A stretch of DNA of 64,000 nt from Rubrivivax sp. GTDB lineage: Bacteria; Pseudomonadota; Gammaproteobacteria; Burkholderiales; Burkholderiaceae_C. The notes under the pieces are model-generated. The model was not told the origin of the DNA, ran no database searches, and saw only the letters and a list, made by a program, of their open reading frames with translations. Shown here piece after piece: positions 5,174 through 17,791 of this stretch (its first letter is position 1; the number at the start of each line of letters is the position of its first letter). Position numbers and translations under genes: made by a program. The stretch is taken from the NCBI GenBank assembly GCA_027490215.1, contig JAIXYO010000029.1:124001-188000 (forward strand), given 5' to 3'.

Positions 5174-6709
5174 TCAGAACCGCATCCTGAGACTGGCCAC
5201 GATGGCGCTTTCGTTGTAGGGATCGAAATCGCTGTGAAACAAGGTTCGGCGTGCTGATAGCGACAGATCGACCTGATTGCTCAGTCGTGTGGTGTAGGCG
5301 GCGCTGAGTGAGCGCAGGCGGGTGGTTCGGTTGTCCCCTGTGGAGCTGTTCCTGCTCAGCGAAAGGTCAGCGCTGAGGGCCGACAAAGGCGTCAGGCGAT
5401 GCGACACGTTGACTCCAAAACCAGTGGAATGGAGGTCGCGACCATTCGACAAGTCACCAGCGTTGGTTGCTGTCTCGTCCACTGCACGCGCGTCGTTACG
5501 CGAAGTGGACAGCAGCAAGGTAGTGCGCAAGCCAAGCAATGCCAGAGACAGGTTCTGTCTCCTCTGGATGGATGCGGCATTGGTGAGAAACCCGCCATTG
5601 ACGAGGGTGCTGCGTGTCAGCCCGTTGTTCTGCAGGAAGGCATCAACCAAGGCGGTGCGCTGCGCCGGATCGGGTGCGATGGATGCGAACTGCGCATACA
5701 ACAGGTCGAACACGCTGCGCGGCGAATTGGTGCCGTTCGCACCGGCAATCGTGTTGACGTCCTGCCCATCAACGAAGCTCCAGACCGTGCGTGGCGTGCG
5801 GTGCTCAAAACGAATGTTGTAGGCGTTGCCAAAGAACCGATGGTCGCGAGTTGCCTCCAGCGTAGTGCGTTCAGTCGGCCTCCAGGTGAAGCCAGCGCTC
5901 CAGTTCGTGGTGCTTTGCTGGCTCGATAACTGGTAATCGTTGCGTTCGCGGCCTGCGCCCGCCGACAGCTGGAACTCCGGGGTGACAGCGAAGGTCAGCC
6001 GACCGTTCAAGCTAGTCGACTCCCGGCTACTCTGGTTTTCAAATTTCGAGCTTTGCCGCGACGCATTCAACGACCAACCGAGGCGTGAAAACAGTGCCTG
6101 ACCGGAACTGAGGACAAAAGACGCAGTGTTGGAGGTCGATCTGGCACTTGAGCCACTGCTGTTGCTGGATGTCCAATCCCACCGCACCTGGTAATTCGCG
6201 AAACTGCCCAGCGGGCCGCGAACATACGGCGCGATCTGGTACGTCGACACCTCGGCGCGATTGCTGTCTGCCAGATTGCGGTCCACCGATCGGGTACCGA
6301 GCGCCGAGATGCTCTGCTGCGCAATGCTGGCGCTGGCATCGACATAGGCCCAATTCTCAACCGCCTCGGCGGTGCCCCGCGCGCTGAGCGACTGCTGCAC
6401 CTCGTTAGCCGACGATCGTCGCGCATAGATCAGCCCGTGCAGGGCGTAGTCGAGGTCACCCACGATTCGCCCGGATCGGCTGCTCAGACGCAGTCCGGGA
6501 CTGATGTCTGTGATCGCATCCGCGCGGGCATCGCTGCCGCTATCAAGCCCCACATTGCTGGTAACAGTCTCGGTGATGCTCAGTGTCGGCTGCAAAAAGA
6601 ACCCTGCCCGCGCGGCTGGCGCTTGCTCTTGAGCATGGGCGGCAAAGGTAGCGATGCCAACCACACCGACCATCTGCGGCAGCACCTGCCGCCCGAGCCA
6701 GCGAAGCAA
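5174..6709 (-). CDS. TIGR03016-type PEP-CTERM-associated outer membrane protein
   Basis: The protein is predicted to be an outer-membrane beta-barrel of the family found only in exosortase/exopolysaccharide loci; its exact role is unknown. A signal peptide (VVGIATFAAHA followed by QEQ) is evident, and the remainder alternates polar and hydrophobic residues, ending in the barrel-type C-terminus ASLRMRF with a final phenylalanine. The start is uncertain. TTG at 6709 gives a standard signal peptide and 511 residues; ATG codons at 6673 or at 6790 (inside the kinase gene) are alternatives, and none has a clear ribosome binding site. It lies between the autokinase and the ATPase genes with almost no spacing. 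Confidence 0.85.
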   Translation of the reverse strand: MLRWLGRQVLPQMVGVVGIATFAAHAQEQAPAARAGFFLQPTLSITETVTSNVGLDSGSDARADAITDISPGLRLSSRSGRIVGDLDYALHGLIYARRSSANEVQQSLSARGTAEAVENWAYVDASASIAQQSISALGTRSVDRNLADSNRAEVSTYQIAPYVRGPLGSFANYQVRWDWTSSNSSGSSARSTSNTASFVLSSGQALFSRLGWSLNASRQSSKFENQSSRESTSLNGRLTFAVTPEFQLSAGAGRERNDYQLSSQQSTTNWSAGFTWRPTERTTLEATRDHRFFGNAYNIRFEHRTPRTVWSFVDGQDVNTIAGANGTNSPRSVFDLLYAQFASIAPDPAQRTALVDAFLQNNGLTRSTLVNGGFLTNAASIQRRQNLSLALLGLRTTLLLSTSRNDARAVDETATNAGDLSNGRDLHSTGFGVNVSHRLTPLSALSADLSLSRNSSTGDNRTTRLRSLSAAYTTRLSNQVDLSLSARRTLFHSDFDPYNESAIVASLRMRF

Positions 6710-12454: not shown

Positions 12455-12645
12455 CTTGCCTCAATCATGTGCGACAAATGAGCCAAACCAGAGCCAACGT
12501 GCGAAAGGTCGCAGCAGACCCCCTACTCAGGGGATGGCACCTCAAGAATGCCCAACCATAATGAATTTTGCGTTTGACTGTGCCTCGCCAGAACTGGCCG
12601 CACAACGAAGTCGCGCGGCATCCATTCACTCTGAGGCAGCCCATC

Positions 12646-14037
12646 ATGAGGGTCTACCGACACGACGTCCTACCAAGCGCCCCTGCTGGCATGGTGGTTG
12701 ACCTGTCTTTGTGTTTCGTGGCGATGTTGCTGGCGGCGTCGACGTTGACCAGCAGGTACATGACCATCCCGAACGCTGTGCCAGAGATTCCCTTGATCTT
12801 GTTCGGCGCCACGTTTTTTGCGTTGGTCATGGCCTTGATGTACGCGCTGGTCGGACTCTACCGTCCGAAAACCATCTCCCTCGGTGCAAAAGCTCTCCGA
12901 ACAGCAGGCGCGATTTGCATTGGTGGCTACCTCACCAGCCTGGTGTTGAGGTTTGTCGCAGATCGTGGCTACATTGAGCAGTTGATTCCAGCGGCCATTT
13001 CTTACCTCGCCGTTGGTTTGGTTTTGTCCCGCGGATGTTTCTACGTCATGCAGCGTGTGACCACTCTTCCCTCGGTATTGATCGTCGGAACCGGGGAGGA
13101 AGCTCAATCCATAGCGGCTGAATTGCAGTTGCCTGGACGAACCGCCCGCAACGTAGTCGGCTTTTTCGCCACCTCGGACGATGCCGAAGGCAAGAAAAAC
13201 GGCATTCCGATTTTCTCTAGCAAATCATCGTTGATTGATCTGGTATCTCGATATTCGGTCAAAGAGATTGTGATCGCCGCACGTGAGCAACGCGGCGGCA
13301 CCATTCCTATGGATCAGTTGTTGGAGTGCCGAATCAGGGGTATCTCGGTGCTGAATCTTGCTGGGTTCAGCGAAAAAACCAAGCGCGAGGTTCGCATCGA
13401 CAGCCTTAAAGGAAGCTGGCTGGTTTACGGGGATGGCTTCGTTCAAGGCCAGATGCGGCAGTTCATGAAGCGGTCGTTCGACATCGTCAGTTCGGTTGTT
13501 TTGTTGATCCTGACAGCGCCTATCATGGCCGCCGCAGCCCTCGCCATTTGGCTGGAAGGCTCTGGGCCAGTCATTTATCGTCAAGCCCGTGTGGGTTTGG
13601 GCGGGCGCGTGTTCATGTGCATGAAATTTCGAAGCATGCGCGCCGACGCCGAACGAGACGGCGTTGCGCGTTGGGCGTCCAAGAATGATCCTCGTGTTAC
13701 TCGCATAGGTTCGTTCATGCGGAAAACTCGCATTGACGAGCTTCCACAGCTGTTCAGCGTGTTGTTCGGCGAGATGAGCCTGGTCGGGCCGCGCCCGGAA
13801 CGGCCAGCATTCGTGGACAAGTTAAAGACAGATATTCCATTTTATGAATTGCGTCACTCAGTCAAACCCGGCATCACTGGCTGGGCGCAGGTTCGTTATC
13901 ACTATGGCGACTCTATGGACGACGCACGGAAAAAGCATCAGTTTGATTTGTATTATGTGAAGAACAACTCCCTCATCCTAGACATCGTTGTGCTAATTGA
14001 GACGGTCAGCGTGGTTTTATTCCGAGAGGGCCAGTAA
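12646..14037 (+). CDS. epsB: XrtA-system initiating sugar transferase (EpsB, TIGR03013 type)
   Basis: A 463-residue polyprenyl-phosphate sugar-1-phosphate transferase that should load the first sugar on undecaprenyl phosphate at the inner membrane. Four to five transmembrane helices fill residues 15-155, followed by a nucleotide/CoA-binding-like region (LIVGTGEEAQSIAAELQLPG). A further membrane helix and the catalytic WcaJ/WbaP domain come next, with KFRSMRADAE, RIDELPQLFSVLFGEMSLVG and the C-terminal GITGWAQVRY. The ATG at 12646 follows GAGG at proper spacing; upstream in-frame codons lack similarity. It is transcribed away from the rest of the operon and leads a plus-strand gene group. Confidence 0.93.
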   Translation: MRVYRHDVLPSAPAGMVVDLSLCFVAMLLAASTLTSRYMTIPNAVPEIPLILFGATFFALVMALMYALVGLYRPKTISLGAKALRTAGAICIGGYLTSLVLRFVADRGYIEQLIPAAISYLAVGLVLSRGCFYVMQRVTTLPSVLIVGTGEEAQSIAAELQLPGRTARNVVGFFATSDDAEGKKNGIPIFSSKSSLIDLVSRYSVKEIVIAAREQRGGTIPMDQLLECRIRGISVLNLAGFSEKTKREVRIDSLKGSWLVYGDGFVQGQMRQFMKRSFDIVSSVVLLILTAPIMAAAALAIWLEGSGPVIYRQARVGLGGRVFMCMKFRSMRADAERDGVARWASKNDPRVTRIGSFMRKTRIDELPQLFSVLFGEMSLVGPRPERPAFVDKLKTDIPFYELRHSVKPGITGWAQVRYHYGDSMDDARKKHQFDLYYVKNNSLILDIVVLIETVSVVLFREGQ

Positions 14038-14086
14038 ACCAGCGCCCATTTGCACACAGAATAGATATCGATCTATGAGGCCAATT

Positions 14087-14671
14087 ATGAATAAAACGGA
14101 AGATAAAAATCAGCCGCCCGGCTCCGCTCCTTCGGAGGCCTTCGAAGAATCCACGAAAGCGGTCCTTAGACGGAAGTTATTGATCAGTGGAATATCCAAG
14201 GGATCAGCAGTTGCTGCAGCGACGATTCCGATCAAGTCGTTGGCTACACAACCCTATGTCACTGCCAACGGAAAGATTTGCACTGTCTCCGGAACGCAGT
14301 CGGCAGCTCATTCGCAGACGGCCGGTTTCCAAGAATGCGTAGGCGGGCATCCTTCTTACTATTGCGACACGAAGAAGTGGCCGTCCCCGTCCAACTGCAA
14401 AGTGGGCAGCACGAGTTTCACGCCCAAATCGCCTTGCAAGATTCTGTGCGGCGGAAGCTCGAATACACTCCTCATTGACTGCCTGAAGAATACTCCCGAC
14501 CATGATAATTCTGTGATAATTACGGCGATCCTTAATTCCTGCAAAGCGAAGGAATCTACCGCCTTTAGATCAGCCTATAGCCCAGAAGAACTAATGAGTC
14601 GCTTTAGCGACACACGGCGTCAAGCCACTTTGGATTTCTGCAGAGGTTACATGCAGACCAAGCGCTCTTGA
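14087..14671 (+). CDS. Small cysteine-rich protein with twin-arginine-like N-terminus, function unknown
   Basis: I do not recognise this 194-residue protein. Residues 1-25 are polar and acidic. Residues 27-32 read LRRKLL, followed by a weakly hydrophobic stretch to an ALA-like end near residue 53 (SLATQ), resembling a Tat export signal or a leader. The remainder holds nine cysteines at 65, 84, 93, 104, 117, 121, 132, 152 and 185, with a CVGGHPSYYCDTKKWPSPSNC core. The start at 14087 has GAGG six bases upstream; ATG at 14075 is possible. Its base composition is visibly more AT-rich than its neighbours. It sits 50 bases after epsB and just before the PqqD-like gene, so it may be a substrate of that set; this is inference. 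Confidence 0.72.
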   Translation: MNKTEDKNQPPGSAPSEAFEESTKAVLRRKLLISGISKGSAVAAATIPIKSLATQPYVTANGKICTVSGTQSAAHSQTAGFQECVGGHPSYYCDTKKWPSPSNCKVGSTSFTPKSPCKILCGGSSNTLLIDCLKNTPDHDNSVIITAILNSCKAKESTAFRSAYSPEELMSRFSDTRRQATLDFCRGYMQTKRS

Positions 14672-14714
14672 TAAATTAATCGACCACGAATTTATCGATC
14701 GATCGCAGCCAATT

Positions 14715-14990
14715 GTGCGAGTACAGTTGTTTGCCCCCACCACACTCCATTGGCGTCACTGGAGCGATGAGTATGTCGTTTTTGATGAATTCTCTGGCGT
14801 AACTCACTTACTAGATTATTCAACGGCTTGTACGTTACTCTGCATCGAAGACGGAATAACAAATCTCGATGCATTGGTAGAGCGCTTCAGTGAGCATATG
14901 TCACCGACAGATCGCGATATACCCGAAGCGCTGTCAGGTATTTGCGAACGGCTAGTCGCTGCCTCACTGATAAAGATTACCTCTGGATGA
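14715..14990 (+). CDS. PqqD-family protein of the HPr-rel-A system
   Basis: A 91-residue protein with the PqqD winged-helix fold pattern: VFDEFSGVTHLLDYSTACTL followed by a region typical of peptide-chaperone domains, ending in ICERLVAASLIK. PqqD-like domains bind leader peptides of ribosomally made peptides and deliver them to modifying enzymes. This variant (TIGR04353 type) is known from cassettes with an HprK-related kinase and a nucleotidyltransferase, where no substrate has been shown. Translation appears to begin at the GTG at 14715, without a strong ribosome binding site. Its stop overlaps the kinase ATG as ATGA, so the two are coupled. Confidence 0.82.
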   Translation: MRVQLFAPTTLHWRHWSDEYVVFDEFSGVTHLLDYSTACTLLCIEDGITNLDALVERFSEHMSPTDRDIPEALSGICERLVAASLIKITSG

Positions 14991-15904
14991 GGCTCTCGTC
15001 ACTGACAGAACCTGAGTTTCACCAGCGTGTCAACGGGGCCGGCATCGCCGTCCAGACGGGTCCATTCATCTTTCGGGTCCGTTCCAGCATTCCTTCAGTA
15101 GCGAAGGGCCTGCATCTGCTCTACGCCGACTACCCGCTGATGCCAAGCAACGGGTTCGTCGACTTCGATTTGCGCATGGAGCGCGGCCGCGGCTTGCACC
15201 GCATGGTTCATCCTCAAGTGCGCTTCGTCTGTGATGGAGGGTCGCCGTTCAAGCCCCTTCCTATCAGTCACGCCTACCCACTTCTCGAATGGGGGATGAA
15301 CTGGTGCATCTCTACCCAGGCGCATCAGTATTTGATGCTGCACGCCGCTGTGGTCGAGCGCGACGGCCACGCCGCAATACTTCCAGCACCACCCGGGTCG
15401 GGGAAAAGCACCTTGTGTGCCGCACTCATTCACCGTGGATGGAGACTGCTGTCTGACGAGATGACATTGATCTCAACTGTCGACACCACTATCGTCCCGC
15501 TCTGCCGTCCCGTCAGCCTCAAGAACGAGTCCCTTGACATCATCCGGGACTTCGCCCCTTCTGCGGTCTTCAGCGATATCGTTCCCGACACCACCAAAGG
15601 GTCCGTAGGCCTGATGAAAGTTGATAAACACCATCTCGATCGCGTGAAGTCAACGGCCCGCCCCGGTTGGGTGATCTTCCCGAAATACGCGCCTGCCGCT
15701 ACCGCTCGACTGGCACCTCGATCACGCGCTGACAGCATGCTTGAACTGGGTCGCAATGCATTCAACTACGGATTGCTGGGTGCATTGGGATTCCACACAC
15801 TGGCCGACGTTGTGGATCAAAGTGACTGTTACGATTTTGAATACAGCGAGCTAGGTGATGCAGTGCAGATATTCGAAACCCTAGCCGCGTCCCGCAGTTC
15901 TTGA
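14987..15904 (+). CDS. HprK-related kinase A
   Basis: A 305-residue protein related to the C-terminal kinase domain of HPr kinase/phosphorylase. The P-loop PAPPGSGKST is at 133-142, preceded by the LHAAVVE strand that is typical for HprK folds, and LLSDEMTLI follows near 155. It lacks the N-terminal DRTGG domain of true HprK and there is no HPr gene in the window, so the phosphate acceptor is unknown. It is coupled to the PqqD-like gene upstream (ATGA) and to the nucleotidyltransferase downstream (TTGA), giving a tight three-gene unit beside the exopolysaccharide genes. Confidence 0.87.
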   Translation: MRLSSLTEPEFHQRVNGAGIAVQTGPFIFRVRSSIPSVAKGLHLLYADYPLMPSNGFVDFDLRMERGRGLHRMVHPQVRFVCDGGSPFKPLPISHAYPLLEWGMNWCISTQAHQYLMLHAAVVERDGHAAILPAPPGSGKSTLCAALIHRGWRLLSDEMTLISTVDTTIVPLCRPVSLKNESLDIIRDFAPSAVFSDIVPDTTKGSVGLMKVDKHHLDRVKSTARPGWVIFPKYAPAATARLAPRSRADSMLELGRNAFNYGLLGALGFHTLADVVDQSDCYDFEYSELGDAVQIFETLAASRSS

Positions 15905-16983
15905 GCCAGGATCTGTTATCAAGCCTTTGGGCTGACCCCAATCGCCAGCCCAAGTTGAGCCCTCGAGAATGGGAACTGCTGCTCGTGCAGGCTCGGCAGG
16001 CGCGCATGCAAGGGCGACTGGCGCAACATTTCGCCGAGCGTGCCTGGCTGAGCGACGTGCCTGCAGCGCCCCGCTGCCATCTTGAAAGTGGACTCATAGT
16101 CGCCCGCAGACAGTGGCACGAGGTGAGATGGGAGGCTGACTGCATCCGGCGAGCGCTGGCCAGCGTCCGCACGCCAATTGTCTTGCTCAAAGGTGCGGCG
16201 TATCTGCTGGCCGGGCTACCCCCAGCTCCGGGACGGATCTTCAGCGACATCGATATCCTGGTCGAGCAATCGAAGCTCGCCGAAGTCGAATCGGCGCTGT
16301 TTGCTGCGGGATGGATCAGTGAAGAGCGCGACGCATACAACGATCGTTACTACCGCCAGTGGATGCATGAGCTCCCACCGATGCGTCATGTACAGCGAGG
16401 CACCTCCATCGACGTTCACCACACCATCACCCCACCGACGTCTCGATTCAAAGTGGATGGAGCGGAGCTGCTGAAACGAATCCAGGCAATCCCTGAACAT
16501 CCAGGCCTCTACACGCTTTGCCCAACAGACATGGTGCTTCACAGCGCTGCGCATCTGTTCCTCGAAGGGGAGTTCGATCACGGCCTGCGCGACCTGCTGG
16601 ACATGAATGACCTCGTGGTGCATTTCGCCAAAGACGGCAGCTACTGGGATCGGTTGTTGGATCGAGCGGAGGAACTTGAGCTGAAGATTCCGCTATCCCA
16701 CGCACTGATTCACTTGAAGCGCTTGTTCTCAACCGCCCCTCCGACGCGCCTTGACACTCGCATCAAAGCGTTGGATCGCAGCGTGATCTCACGCCGATTG
16801 ATGTCCGCCTTGTTGAGCAGGGCGTTGCGGCCAGACCATCCCAGTTGTGACGAGAGATTCACAGCGTTGGCGCGGTGGCTCCTGTACGTTCGCTCTCATC
16901 ACATGCGCATGCCGATTCACTTGGCAGTTCCGCACTTGGCACGCAAGGCACTGATGCGCATACGGTCAGACAATGACGGGTGA
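15901..16983 (+). CDS. Nucleotidyltransferase-family protein of the HPr-rel-A system
   Basis: A 360-residue protein of the uncharacterised NTP_transf_5 (PF14907-like) nucleotidyltransferase group. The key features are LLKGAAYLLAG (about 95-105) and SDIDIL (115-120), the carboxylate pair expected to bind metal. The C-terminal half is helical with DMVLHSAAHLF and DLLDMNDLV segments. Translation starts at a TTG that overlaps the kinase stop (TTGA). Family members occur next to HprK-related kinases and exosortase-type exopolysaccharide genes. Whether it transfers a nucleotide to the cysteine-rich protein, a sugar or another target is unknown. Confidence 0.85.
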   Translation: MSQDLLSSLWADPNRQPKLSPREWELLLVQARQARMQGRLAQHFAERAWLSDVPAAPRCHLESGLIVARRQWHEVRWEADCIRRALASVRTPIVLLKGAAYLLAGLPPAPGRIFSDIDILVEQSKLAEVESALFAAGWISEERDAYNDRYYRQWMHELPPMRHVQRGTSIDVHHTITPPTSRFKVDGAELLKRIQAIPEHPGLYTLCPTDMVLHSAAHLFLEGEFDHGLRDLLDMNDLVVHFAKDGSYWDRLLDRAEELELKIPLSHALIHLKRLFSTAPPTRLDTRIKALDRSVISRRLMSALLSRALRPDHPSCDERFTALARWLLYVRSHHMRMPIHLAVPHLARKALMRIRSDNDG

Positions 16984-16990
16984 ACTGGAT

Positions 16991-17791
16991 ATGAAAGCAC
17001 TTCCGGCATTGATGTGGGCAGCCTCAAGATACCTGCTGGGCTTAACCATCTTGATGACGTCGTCCTTGTCGACCGCGGCGGATACGCTTCCGGGTCTGAT
17101 CGCCAAGCTCAAGCCATCGGTATTGGCCGTCGGCTTCTACAAGGAAACGCAGACCCCCCGCTTCGGCTTCAGCGGCACAGGCTTCATTGTTGGCGACGGC
17201 AACCTGCTGGTGACCAATGCGCATGTGATCGCGCGCACCACAGGAGATGCCGCAGGTGCCGGCAGCCTGGTCGTCTACACGCCCGGCGCATCAGGACAAG
17301 ACAGCATGCGACGGCTCGAGGTGATCGAGGTCGACAAAGCACATGACCTGGCCCTGCTTCGCTTCGAGGGAAGCGCCTTGCCGGTGCTCACCTTGGGCCC
17401 GGCGCAGGCTGCGCGCGAAGGACAGATGGTCGCCTTCATTGGATTCCCGCTGGGCAGCAGTTTGGGCCTGTCCCCAGTCACCCACCGCGGCATCGTGTCA
17501 GCGATCACCTCGGTGGCGCTGCCCAGCCCGAGCGCGCGACAACTCGACAGCCGCGCCATCAAGGCACTGAAGGATGGTGCTTTCGAGTTGCTACAGCTGG
17601 ATGCGACCGCCTACCCTGGCAACAGCGGTGGCCCCTTGTTTGATGCGGAGTCTGGCGCCGTCGTCGGCGTGGTGAACATGGTTGCACTGAAGGGCACTCG
17701 CGAATCCGCCCTCAGCCAGCCGTCGGGCATCACCTATGCGATCCCGGTGGAACACGTGCTGCGCCTGCTGGCGCGCAACGAGGGCAAATAG
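16991..17791 (+). CDS. Exported trypsin-like serine protease (S1C/DegP-type, no PDZ)
   Basis: A 266-residue periplasmic protease. The N-terminal signal (YLLGLTILMTSSLSTAAD) ends near residue 31. The catalytic triad is H78 (TNAHV), D119 (KAHDLALLRF) and S212 (YPGNSGGPLF). There is no PDZ domain, so it is shorter than DegP/DegQ. ATG at 16991 is preferred; an in-frame ATG at 16973 overlaps the nucleotidyltransferase gene. Its position directly after the HPr-rel-A genes and before prsR suggests a role in maturation or turnover of exported products of this locus, which is inference from context only. Confidence 0.88.
   Translation: MKALPALMWAASRYLLGLTILMTSSLSTAADTLPGLIAKLKPSVLAVGFYKETQTPRFGFSGTGFIVGDGNLLVTNAHVIARTTGDAAGAGSLVVYTPGASGQDSMRRLEVIEVDKAHDLALLRFEGSALPVLTLGPAQAAREGQMVAFIGFPLGSSLGLSPVTHRGIVSAITSVALPSPSARQLDSRAIKALKDGAFELLQLDATAYPGNSGGPLFDAESGAVVGVVNMVALKGTRESALSQPSGITYAIPVEHVLRLLARNEGK

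Follow-up and report, generated by a model that had tools for sequence, protein, structure and literature searches.

HprK-like kinases that act on serine have been described in two peptide pathways. For lasso peptides, the portions of PMC9266682 that we drew on report that a homologous HprK-like kinase phosphorylates a serine and that PsmN, annotated as a nucleotidyltransferase, is required for hexoses to appear on the phosphoserine, and they leave undecided whether PsmN itself attaches the hexoses; they also describe an HKDD motif as a feature of lasso kinases. For the LPP pathway of Bacillota, whose discovery search started from capsular-polysaccharide loci, the corresponding portions of PMC13381572 describe a kinase that phosphorylates serine, does not phosphorylate an S3T variant and accepts neither threonine nor tyrosine in place of serine. 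A further system, HPr-rel-A, is known to us by name from NCBIfam, through models for a kinase and a PqqD-like chaperone; our Pfam and NCBIfam scans found no substrate model, and a search of the openly licensed PMC literature found no paper describing the system. Here, we analyze a member of HPr-rel-A in a 64,000-nucleotide stretch of Rubrivivax sp. (hereafter the window). We propose, with moderate confidence, that it is a protein-modification module coupled to twin-arginine translocation (Tat), which serves the matrix of an exosortase and exopolysaccharide (EPS) system.

The unit consists of four genes on the + strand (14087-16983). The first (14087..14671), starting at ATG 14087, encodes a 194-residue twin-arginine protein, the putative substrate, from a family without a Pfam or NCBIfam name. 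By profile alignment, the codons of its invariant R28-R29, part of a Tat-type leader with the sequence 'LRRKLLISG', lie at 14168..14173, and the alignments place a conserved motif with the proposed modification serines, C65-T-V-S68-G-T-Q-S72-A-A-H-S76, at 14279..14314. The second gene (14715..14990) runs from GTG 14715 to TGA 14990 and encodes a PqqD-like protein (TIGR04353; 40 bits, cut-off 35), the predicted leader-binding adaptor, in other words a recognition element (RRE) of ribosomally synthesized and post-translationally modified peptides (RiPPs). It is followed by HprK-related kinase A (14987..15904; TIGR04352, 386.6 bits, cut-off 200), which starts at ATG 14987 and ends with TGA, and by a nucleotidyltransferase of the NTP_transf_5 family (15901..16983; PF14907, E 3.2e-52) with a TTG start. 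The adjacent matches to TIGR04353 and TIGR04352, both above cut-off, make the window a member of HPr-rel-A. The last three genes are joined by overlaps, ATGA at 14987-14990 between the PqqD and kinase genes and TTGA at 15901-15904 between the kinase and nucleotidyltransferase genes. Nine cysteines occur in the 194-residue protein, at residues 65, 84, 93, 104, 117, 121, 132, 152 and 185. The unit stands between a TIGR03013 sugar transferase and a trypsin-like protease. The original prediction had described the nine cysteines, the RRKLL leader, the gene order, both overlaps, the following protease and the EPS locus, and all were found as described.

We then asked how regularly the small protein accompanies the kinase. 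Among 150 genomes from the same taxonomic family, a search with its sequence alone found it in 12, each time with a kinase match ~1 kb away; 41 of the 150 carry the kinase, 37 of them over cut-off. Kinase loci were gathered from these 150 genomes and from a further set of 80 named genome loci, the latter being the best matches to the kinase alignment out of at least 176 confirmed ones, which biases the set. Of the resulting 110 loci (the window and L014-L122), two were dropped because their kinases shared 95% identity or more with another one, which left 108. An iterated profile detected a member of the small-protein family at 108/108 of these non-redundant loci, and its adjacency to the kinase is thus far beyond chance. 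At 104 loci the member precedes the PqqD gene, at four (L025, L075, L096 and L097) it comes after the nucleotidyltransferase gene, and the same profile found no further family matches in the fetched stretches of the 108. The RRE gene is directly upstream of the kinase gene at 105/108 loci, being undetected at L076, L108 and L120, and the nucleotidyltransferase gene is downstream of it at 107/108, the stretch of L054 ending before that point. Two of the four exceptional loci carry two tandem substrate genes 3' of the nucleotidyltransferase gene, instead of one upstream (L096:5689-7107 and L097:2541-4043).

A class-wide sample of 369 genomes, chosen independently of the kinase, gave a similar picture when profile matches and kinases were paired manually by their coordinates; two of these genomes, G000 and G114, were among the sources of the profile. 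An over-cut-off kinase was present in 41 of the 369 genomes and had an adjoining small-protein match in 38. The three kinases without a match are those of G240, G461 and G406, the last of which is only 640 bases away from the end of its contig; in the flanks of G240 and G461, an RR protein next to the kinase matches weakly (L173, E 0.0019; L174, E 6.9e-6). Viewed from the small protein, 38 of 55 class-wide matches adjoin an over-cut-off kinase and 17 do not. Among the 17, four are domain-only proteins, five lie beside divergent HprK-like kinases (two in G250, and G465:C112, G432 and G332), four are short peptides with the kinase undetected on the fetched stretch (G433:C464, G507, G465:C239 and G185), and one, G443:C20, is a full-length stray whose genome carries a cassette at another site; G487 was not recovered as an open reading frame (ORF), and G504 and G164:C32 are outside the classification. 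In a phylum sample of 398 genomes, which partly overlaps the earlier samples, 27 matches were found at E <= 1e-5, of which 24 include the leader and three are domain-only. A kinase lies within 1.5 kb of 22 of the 24 leader-bearing matches; L197 has the RRE only and L208 has neither. The original prediction, a protein-modification system in which the twin-arginine protein is the likely substrate, had staked itself beforehand on this co-occurrence, and the counts of 108/108 loci and 38/41 class-wide kinases support it.

Two kinds of family member depart from this arrangement. The protein at L168:1405-2601 is full-length, with RR leader and serine motif; the kinase is undetected on its fetched stretch and a complete cassette lies elsewhere in the genome, and it is possibly a second substrate acted on in trans. 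Furthermore, short peptides of 57-90 residues adjoin divergent HprK-like kinases (L180:4576-4749 and 6212-6391, L181:7346-7564, L182:7653-8885 and L183:10446-10709), with a PqqD-like protein also present at L182 and L183. Their leader reads approximately SRRxFLKKxAYVAPxxLTLxAxPxxA, with GS directly after it. They possibly represent a small-peptide branch of the same chemistry. L176-L179 resemble these GS peptides, and on their fetched stretches no module gene was detected.

The small-protein family is very divergent, with 15-34% identity to the window protein (alignment A2), compared to 41-65% for the kinase (alignment A1). A constant pattern, C-x2-S-[GA]-x2-S-x3-S, follows directly after the export signal. 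In the occupied cells of the 111-row profile alignment, the cysteine is kept in 105/109, the first serine in 105/109, the second in 108/109 (never as Thr) and the third in 93/105; a second conserved cysteine is found in 94/108. The arginine pair is present in all 107 rows reaching those columns, four rows being gapped there, and is followed by a hydrophobic stretch that ends in a small residue. Together with the TatC encoded in the genome, this points to a twin-arginine signal. Alignment A2 comprises 90 rows selected for containing RR, so that its RR count of 90/90 holds by construction (4 of 111 hits were dropped); it was thinned at 70% identity to 105 rows and by length to 104, of which 14 were then left out by eye. 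Here, conservation is 88/90 for C65, 87/90 for S68 (3 Thr), 87/90 for S72 (no Thr), 66/90 for S76, 79/90 for C84, 82/90 for W98, 84/90 for L149 and 82/90 for N150. Of the nine cysteines in the window protein, only C65 and C84 thus stand out across the family, and cysteine-richness, which the original prediction had taken for a defining trait, was rejected as one.

Scanning the 90 members gave no convincing Pfam or NCBIfam assignment (two stray single-member matches per library), no PDB sequence relatives were found at E <= 1, and a Foldseek search with the window protein found no known fold (best E 2.1). In the structure model, only residues ~81-190 are predicted with confidence; they form a domain of ~110 residues with block values of the predicted local distance difference test (pLDDT) of 83-94. 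Seven exported-looking proteins (L164-L167, L192, L195 and L210) share only this C-terminal domain, recognizable by GYWK...W...HxxAAxLN (profile positions from ~86), and no module genes were found in the short flanks searched. The C-S-S-S motif is missing in 7/7 of these cassette-less ORFs; in L164, a looser S-[GA]-x2-S-x3-S lacking the cysteine occurs at residue 68, far from the domain. As the N-termini of L167, L192 and L210 lie at or near a stretch edge, absence of the leader is claimed for only part of the seven. Since the domain-only relatives lack it, the cassette partners are told apart by the serine motif, which as a rule follows an RR leader.

These observations bear on whether the twin-arginine protein is modified at all. 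The enzyme trio could instead act on an EPS intermediate or another protein, the Tat protein being a merely co-transferred effector, which would be compatible with the neighbourhood data, and the kinase also tracks exosortase A (XrtA) genome-wide (see below). Still, RREs are known to bind peptide leaders and a family member is found at every one of the 108 loci, where other leader-bearing proteins were not systematically sought; moreover, the residues conserved behind the signal are serines and a cysteine, a motif that the cassette-less domain relatives lack. We therefore regard this alternative as unlikely and retain the twin-arginine protein as the probable substrate.

The PqqD-like protein was modeled by AlphaFold2 with a pLDDT of 92.5 (alignment of 47 of 106 sequences). 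A Foldseek search with this model matched TbiB1 (E 2.2e-4), TfuB1 (0.011) and PqqD (0.049), the TbiB1 and TfuB1 structures being leader-peptide complexes; the sactipeptide-enzyme structure 5why ranked after these two. The sequence profile reaches TfuB1 (E 0.007) and TbiB1 (E 0.03) weakly. The protein is thus an RRE by predicted fold, and it would presumably bind a leader.

The best PDB matches of the kinase profile are HPr kinases (E 0.001), and the residues H119, K140, D157 and E158, invariant in 20 sequences, align with the His, the P-loop Lys and the Asp-Asp of HprK (1jb1). This distant similarity is what a regulatory HPr(Ser) kinase/phosphorylase of sugar metabolism with incidental neighbours would show as well. 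Such an identity was rejected, as the protein scores 386.6 bits to HprK_rel_A and 21.1 to hpr-ser (cut-off 240), and an RRE gene directly upstream at 105/108 loci also argues against it; we consider it highly improbable. In the nucleotidyltransferase, K93, G94, D112, D114 and D167 (numbered from base 15913) are invariant in 27/27 aligned of 80 sequences. From general knowledge of the fold, we take K93-G94 together with D112, D114 and D167 to be the catalytic set. Its only PDB matches, two short ones at E 0.74 and 0.90, were judged spurious.

A comparison with the congener G103 (L185) suggests that the four genes travel together. The left flank, an XrtA/PEP-CTERM sugar transferase (TIGR03013 by model match; 12568..14037, + strand), is 90% identical over 294 columns, and the protease on the right flank is 87% identical. 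Between them, identity falls to 23% for the substrate (109 columns), 42% for the kinase and 40% for the nucleotidyltransferase, and for the RRE only a 24-column stretch could be aligned (42%). Long nucleotide similarity ends at 14035 and is regained from 16990, the base preceding an ATG of the protease, which delimits an exchanged module on the + strand (14036..16989); inside it, the alignable sequence is limited to two stretches, 99 and 134 bases long. The nearest neighbours of the window substrate and kinase belong to one group (L019, L029 and L043 in the top five), and those of the G103 substrate and kinase to another (L109 first for both). For this one genome pair, the simplest reading is that all four genes were exchanged as one block, which did not include the protease. 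The similarity matrix of the substrates correlates with those of the kinases and nucleotidyltransferases over 104 cassettes (Spearman 0.39 and 0.45), the kinase value exceeding all 1000 permutations (maximum 0.15); these correlations carry little weight because they are expected for co-inherited genes. A separate ancestry had originally been proposed on the grounds of AT-richness. The whole-module swap favours such an ancestry more than composition does, and the compositional argument is only partly borne out: bases 14000-14999 have a GC content of 49.5%, but the whole module has 55.8%, like the preceding transferase with 54.6%, while the following protease has 63.0%.

The trypsin-like, exported protease (16991..17791, + strand; Trypsin_2, E 1.3e-28) is listed as an ORF at 16973-17791 with ATG 16991 as a possible start, and is part of the conserved congener flank. 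Among the 75 loci with enough room, 3 have it after the nucleotidyltransferase gene within 4 kb; among the 33 shorter ones, the start of the protease gene is visible at that place in 4 (L018, L019, L020 and L031). Altogether, it follows at 7/108 loci (the window, L018, L019, L020, L031, L082 and L112) and in G103. It lies somewhere near the kinase in 24 of the 75 roomy loci, mostly upstream of the module and rarely after it, which fits membership of the EPS locus, to which it may belong. Lying outside the exchanged stretch and so seldom directly downstream, the protease was set aside as a module part, and the earlier proposal that it clips the small protein is not supported; where the protease is present, cutting of the small protein is possible.

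Clipping would be central if the small protein were a RiPP-type precursor, from which the protease frees a short modified peptide as the active product and leaves the remainder as a scaffold. This alternative can draw on the enzyme trio, which is the same as in the lasso and LPP pathways, on the 57-90-residue twin-arginine GS peptides adjoining divergent HprK-like kinases, and on the protease directly after the module in the window, at least six other loci of the 108 and G103. It has to account for a mature part that is a conserved, confidently predicted domain of ~110 residues, in which W98, L149 and N150 are kept (82, 84 and 82 of 90), and for the position of the protease outside the exchanged module and in only 3/75 roomy loci directly downstream. 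We judge it improbable, and favour modification of a protein that is exported as a folded whole.

The surroundings point to the process in which such a protein may act. The EPS locus in the window is of the XrtA/PEP-CTERM type, with the TIGR03013 transferase, PrsK, an export protein and a chain-length protein, and XrtA itself is encoded ~300 bases left of the window. In the 150 genomes of the family sample, the kinase is found over cut-off in 37, XrtA in 39 and both in 35 (Fisher p 2.7e-27); in the 369 genomes of the class sample, the numbers are 41, 73 and 35 (p 1.4e-22), all p-values being inflated by genome relatedness. In the 35 family genomes that have both, kinase and XrtA lie no more than 60 kb apart in 8 and on the same contig at a distance of at least 1.9 Mb in 3; in the other 24, mostly drafts, they are on different contigs. 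With at least three genomes in which kinase and XrtA are far apart, linkage accounts for part of the tie, but not all of it. Among the 48 loci that extend 9 kb or more to both sides, EPS marker genes, searched with single-sequence profiles from the window, occur in 29, one of them being the window itself.

Sigma-54-like sites were sought as GG-N10-GC with at most two mismatches to TGGCAC-N5-TTGC, which we take to be the sigma-54 consensus, within 300 bases upstream. They precede the substrate gene in 48/104 loci, compared to 126/922 other large ORFs (p 1.2e-13), 11.5% of random stretches and 7/104 loci on the opposite strand. According to the excerpts of PMC9850573 available to us, a PEP-CTERM gene involved in floc formation in Aquincola is RpoN-dependent with a sigma-54-type site, and the floc loci include a TIGR03013 transferase and PrsK/PrsR.

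Taken together, we propose the following sequence of events. The RRE would bind the twin-arginine leader of the 194-residue protein in the cytoplasm and present the protein to the kinase. HprK-related kinase A would then phosphorylate one or more serines of C-x2-S-x3-S-x3-S behind the leader, and the nucleotidyltransferase may add a second group, a sugar or a nucleotide, to the phosphoserine, by analogy with lasso tailoring. The folded, modified protein would be exported via Tat, its leader removed, and would act outside with the exosortase-A/PEP-CTERM EPS system, its most probable role there being in the matrix or at the surface. A phosphate-linked sugar on the serines could even be the covalent graft point or primer for the exosortase-A EPS, a linkage of protein to polysaccharide via phosphoserine under RRE guidance, with the RRE gating Tat export until the protein is modified, in the way Tat chaperones treat cofactor enzymes; this extension is a long shot, and we offer it as speculation.

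Several observations weigh against the proposed module. The structure model has low confidence for residues 1-80 (block means 48-66), where leader and serine motif are located, and the positions before RR are too variable for an obvious RRE site like YxxP. The Pfam TAT model matched only 1/90 members at E <= 0.01, and the cassette-less domain protein L195 also has RR in an N-terminal signal-like stretch. The kinase has a glutamate, E158, at the second Asp of the HKDD motif. In the class sample, the kinase is absent from 38 of 73 XrtA genomes, and XrtA over cut-off is absent from 6 of 41 kinase genomes. Finally, no sigma-54-like site was found upstream of the window's own substrate gene.

How does this cassette compare to the described pathways? 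PF13471, which we take to be the lasso leader peptidase family (B2), has no match in the genome (99.6% complete), and no Asn-synthetase-like cyclase (PF00733) was found within the window, the nearest of six genome matches lying ~18 kb left of the module. The tailoring of paeninodin and pseudomycoidin is nevertheless similar: it shares the RRE fold (B1 in the lasso clusters) and, in the parts of PMC9266682 consulted, an HprK-like serine kinase is followed by the annotated nucleotidyltransferase PsmN acting on serine. There, the lasso peptides are phosphorylated at a C-terminal serine, whereas here the substrate has ~200 residues and a Tat-type leader. The LPP pathway likewise combines a discrete RRE, an HprK-like kinase and an NTP transferase without a cyclase, as far as the excerpts of PMC13381572 go. 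However, LPP precursors carry YxxPxVLxHQxIxFETxxS, which by eye is absent from the window protein with its RR leader. LPP clusters also contain an archaeal-type (SipW-like) signal peptidase and an MsbA-like transporter; within the four genes analyzed here there is neither a peptidase nor an exporter, and the genes adjoining them encode a sugar transferase and a trypsin-like protease. A word search of the main text of the LPP paper found no twin-arginine, Proteobacteria, Pseudomonadota, PEP-CTERM or PqqD, and among titles and abstract beginnings in the openly licensed PMC literature we found no paper tying an RRE/HprK cassette to Tat or PEP-CTERM.

The original view that the chemistry is undescribed was therefore too strong, as the same enzyme trio occurs in lasso tailoring (PMC9266682) and LPP (PMC13381572), to the extent that these sources cover it. 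To HPr-rel-A, our analysis adds a substrate family, a serine motif, the link to XrtA and module exchange, so that a gene system known by name gains candidate modified residues and a biological setting. The exosortase/PEP-CTERM matrix system, in turn, gains a tightly linked component of relevance to flocs and biofilms. In action, the cassette likely resembles the lasso and LPP tailoring trio, with a protein of ~200 residues as the likely substrate. If this is true, RRE-guided serine phosphorylation would reach beyond small peptides to a folded protein exported by Tat.

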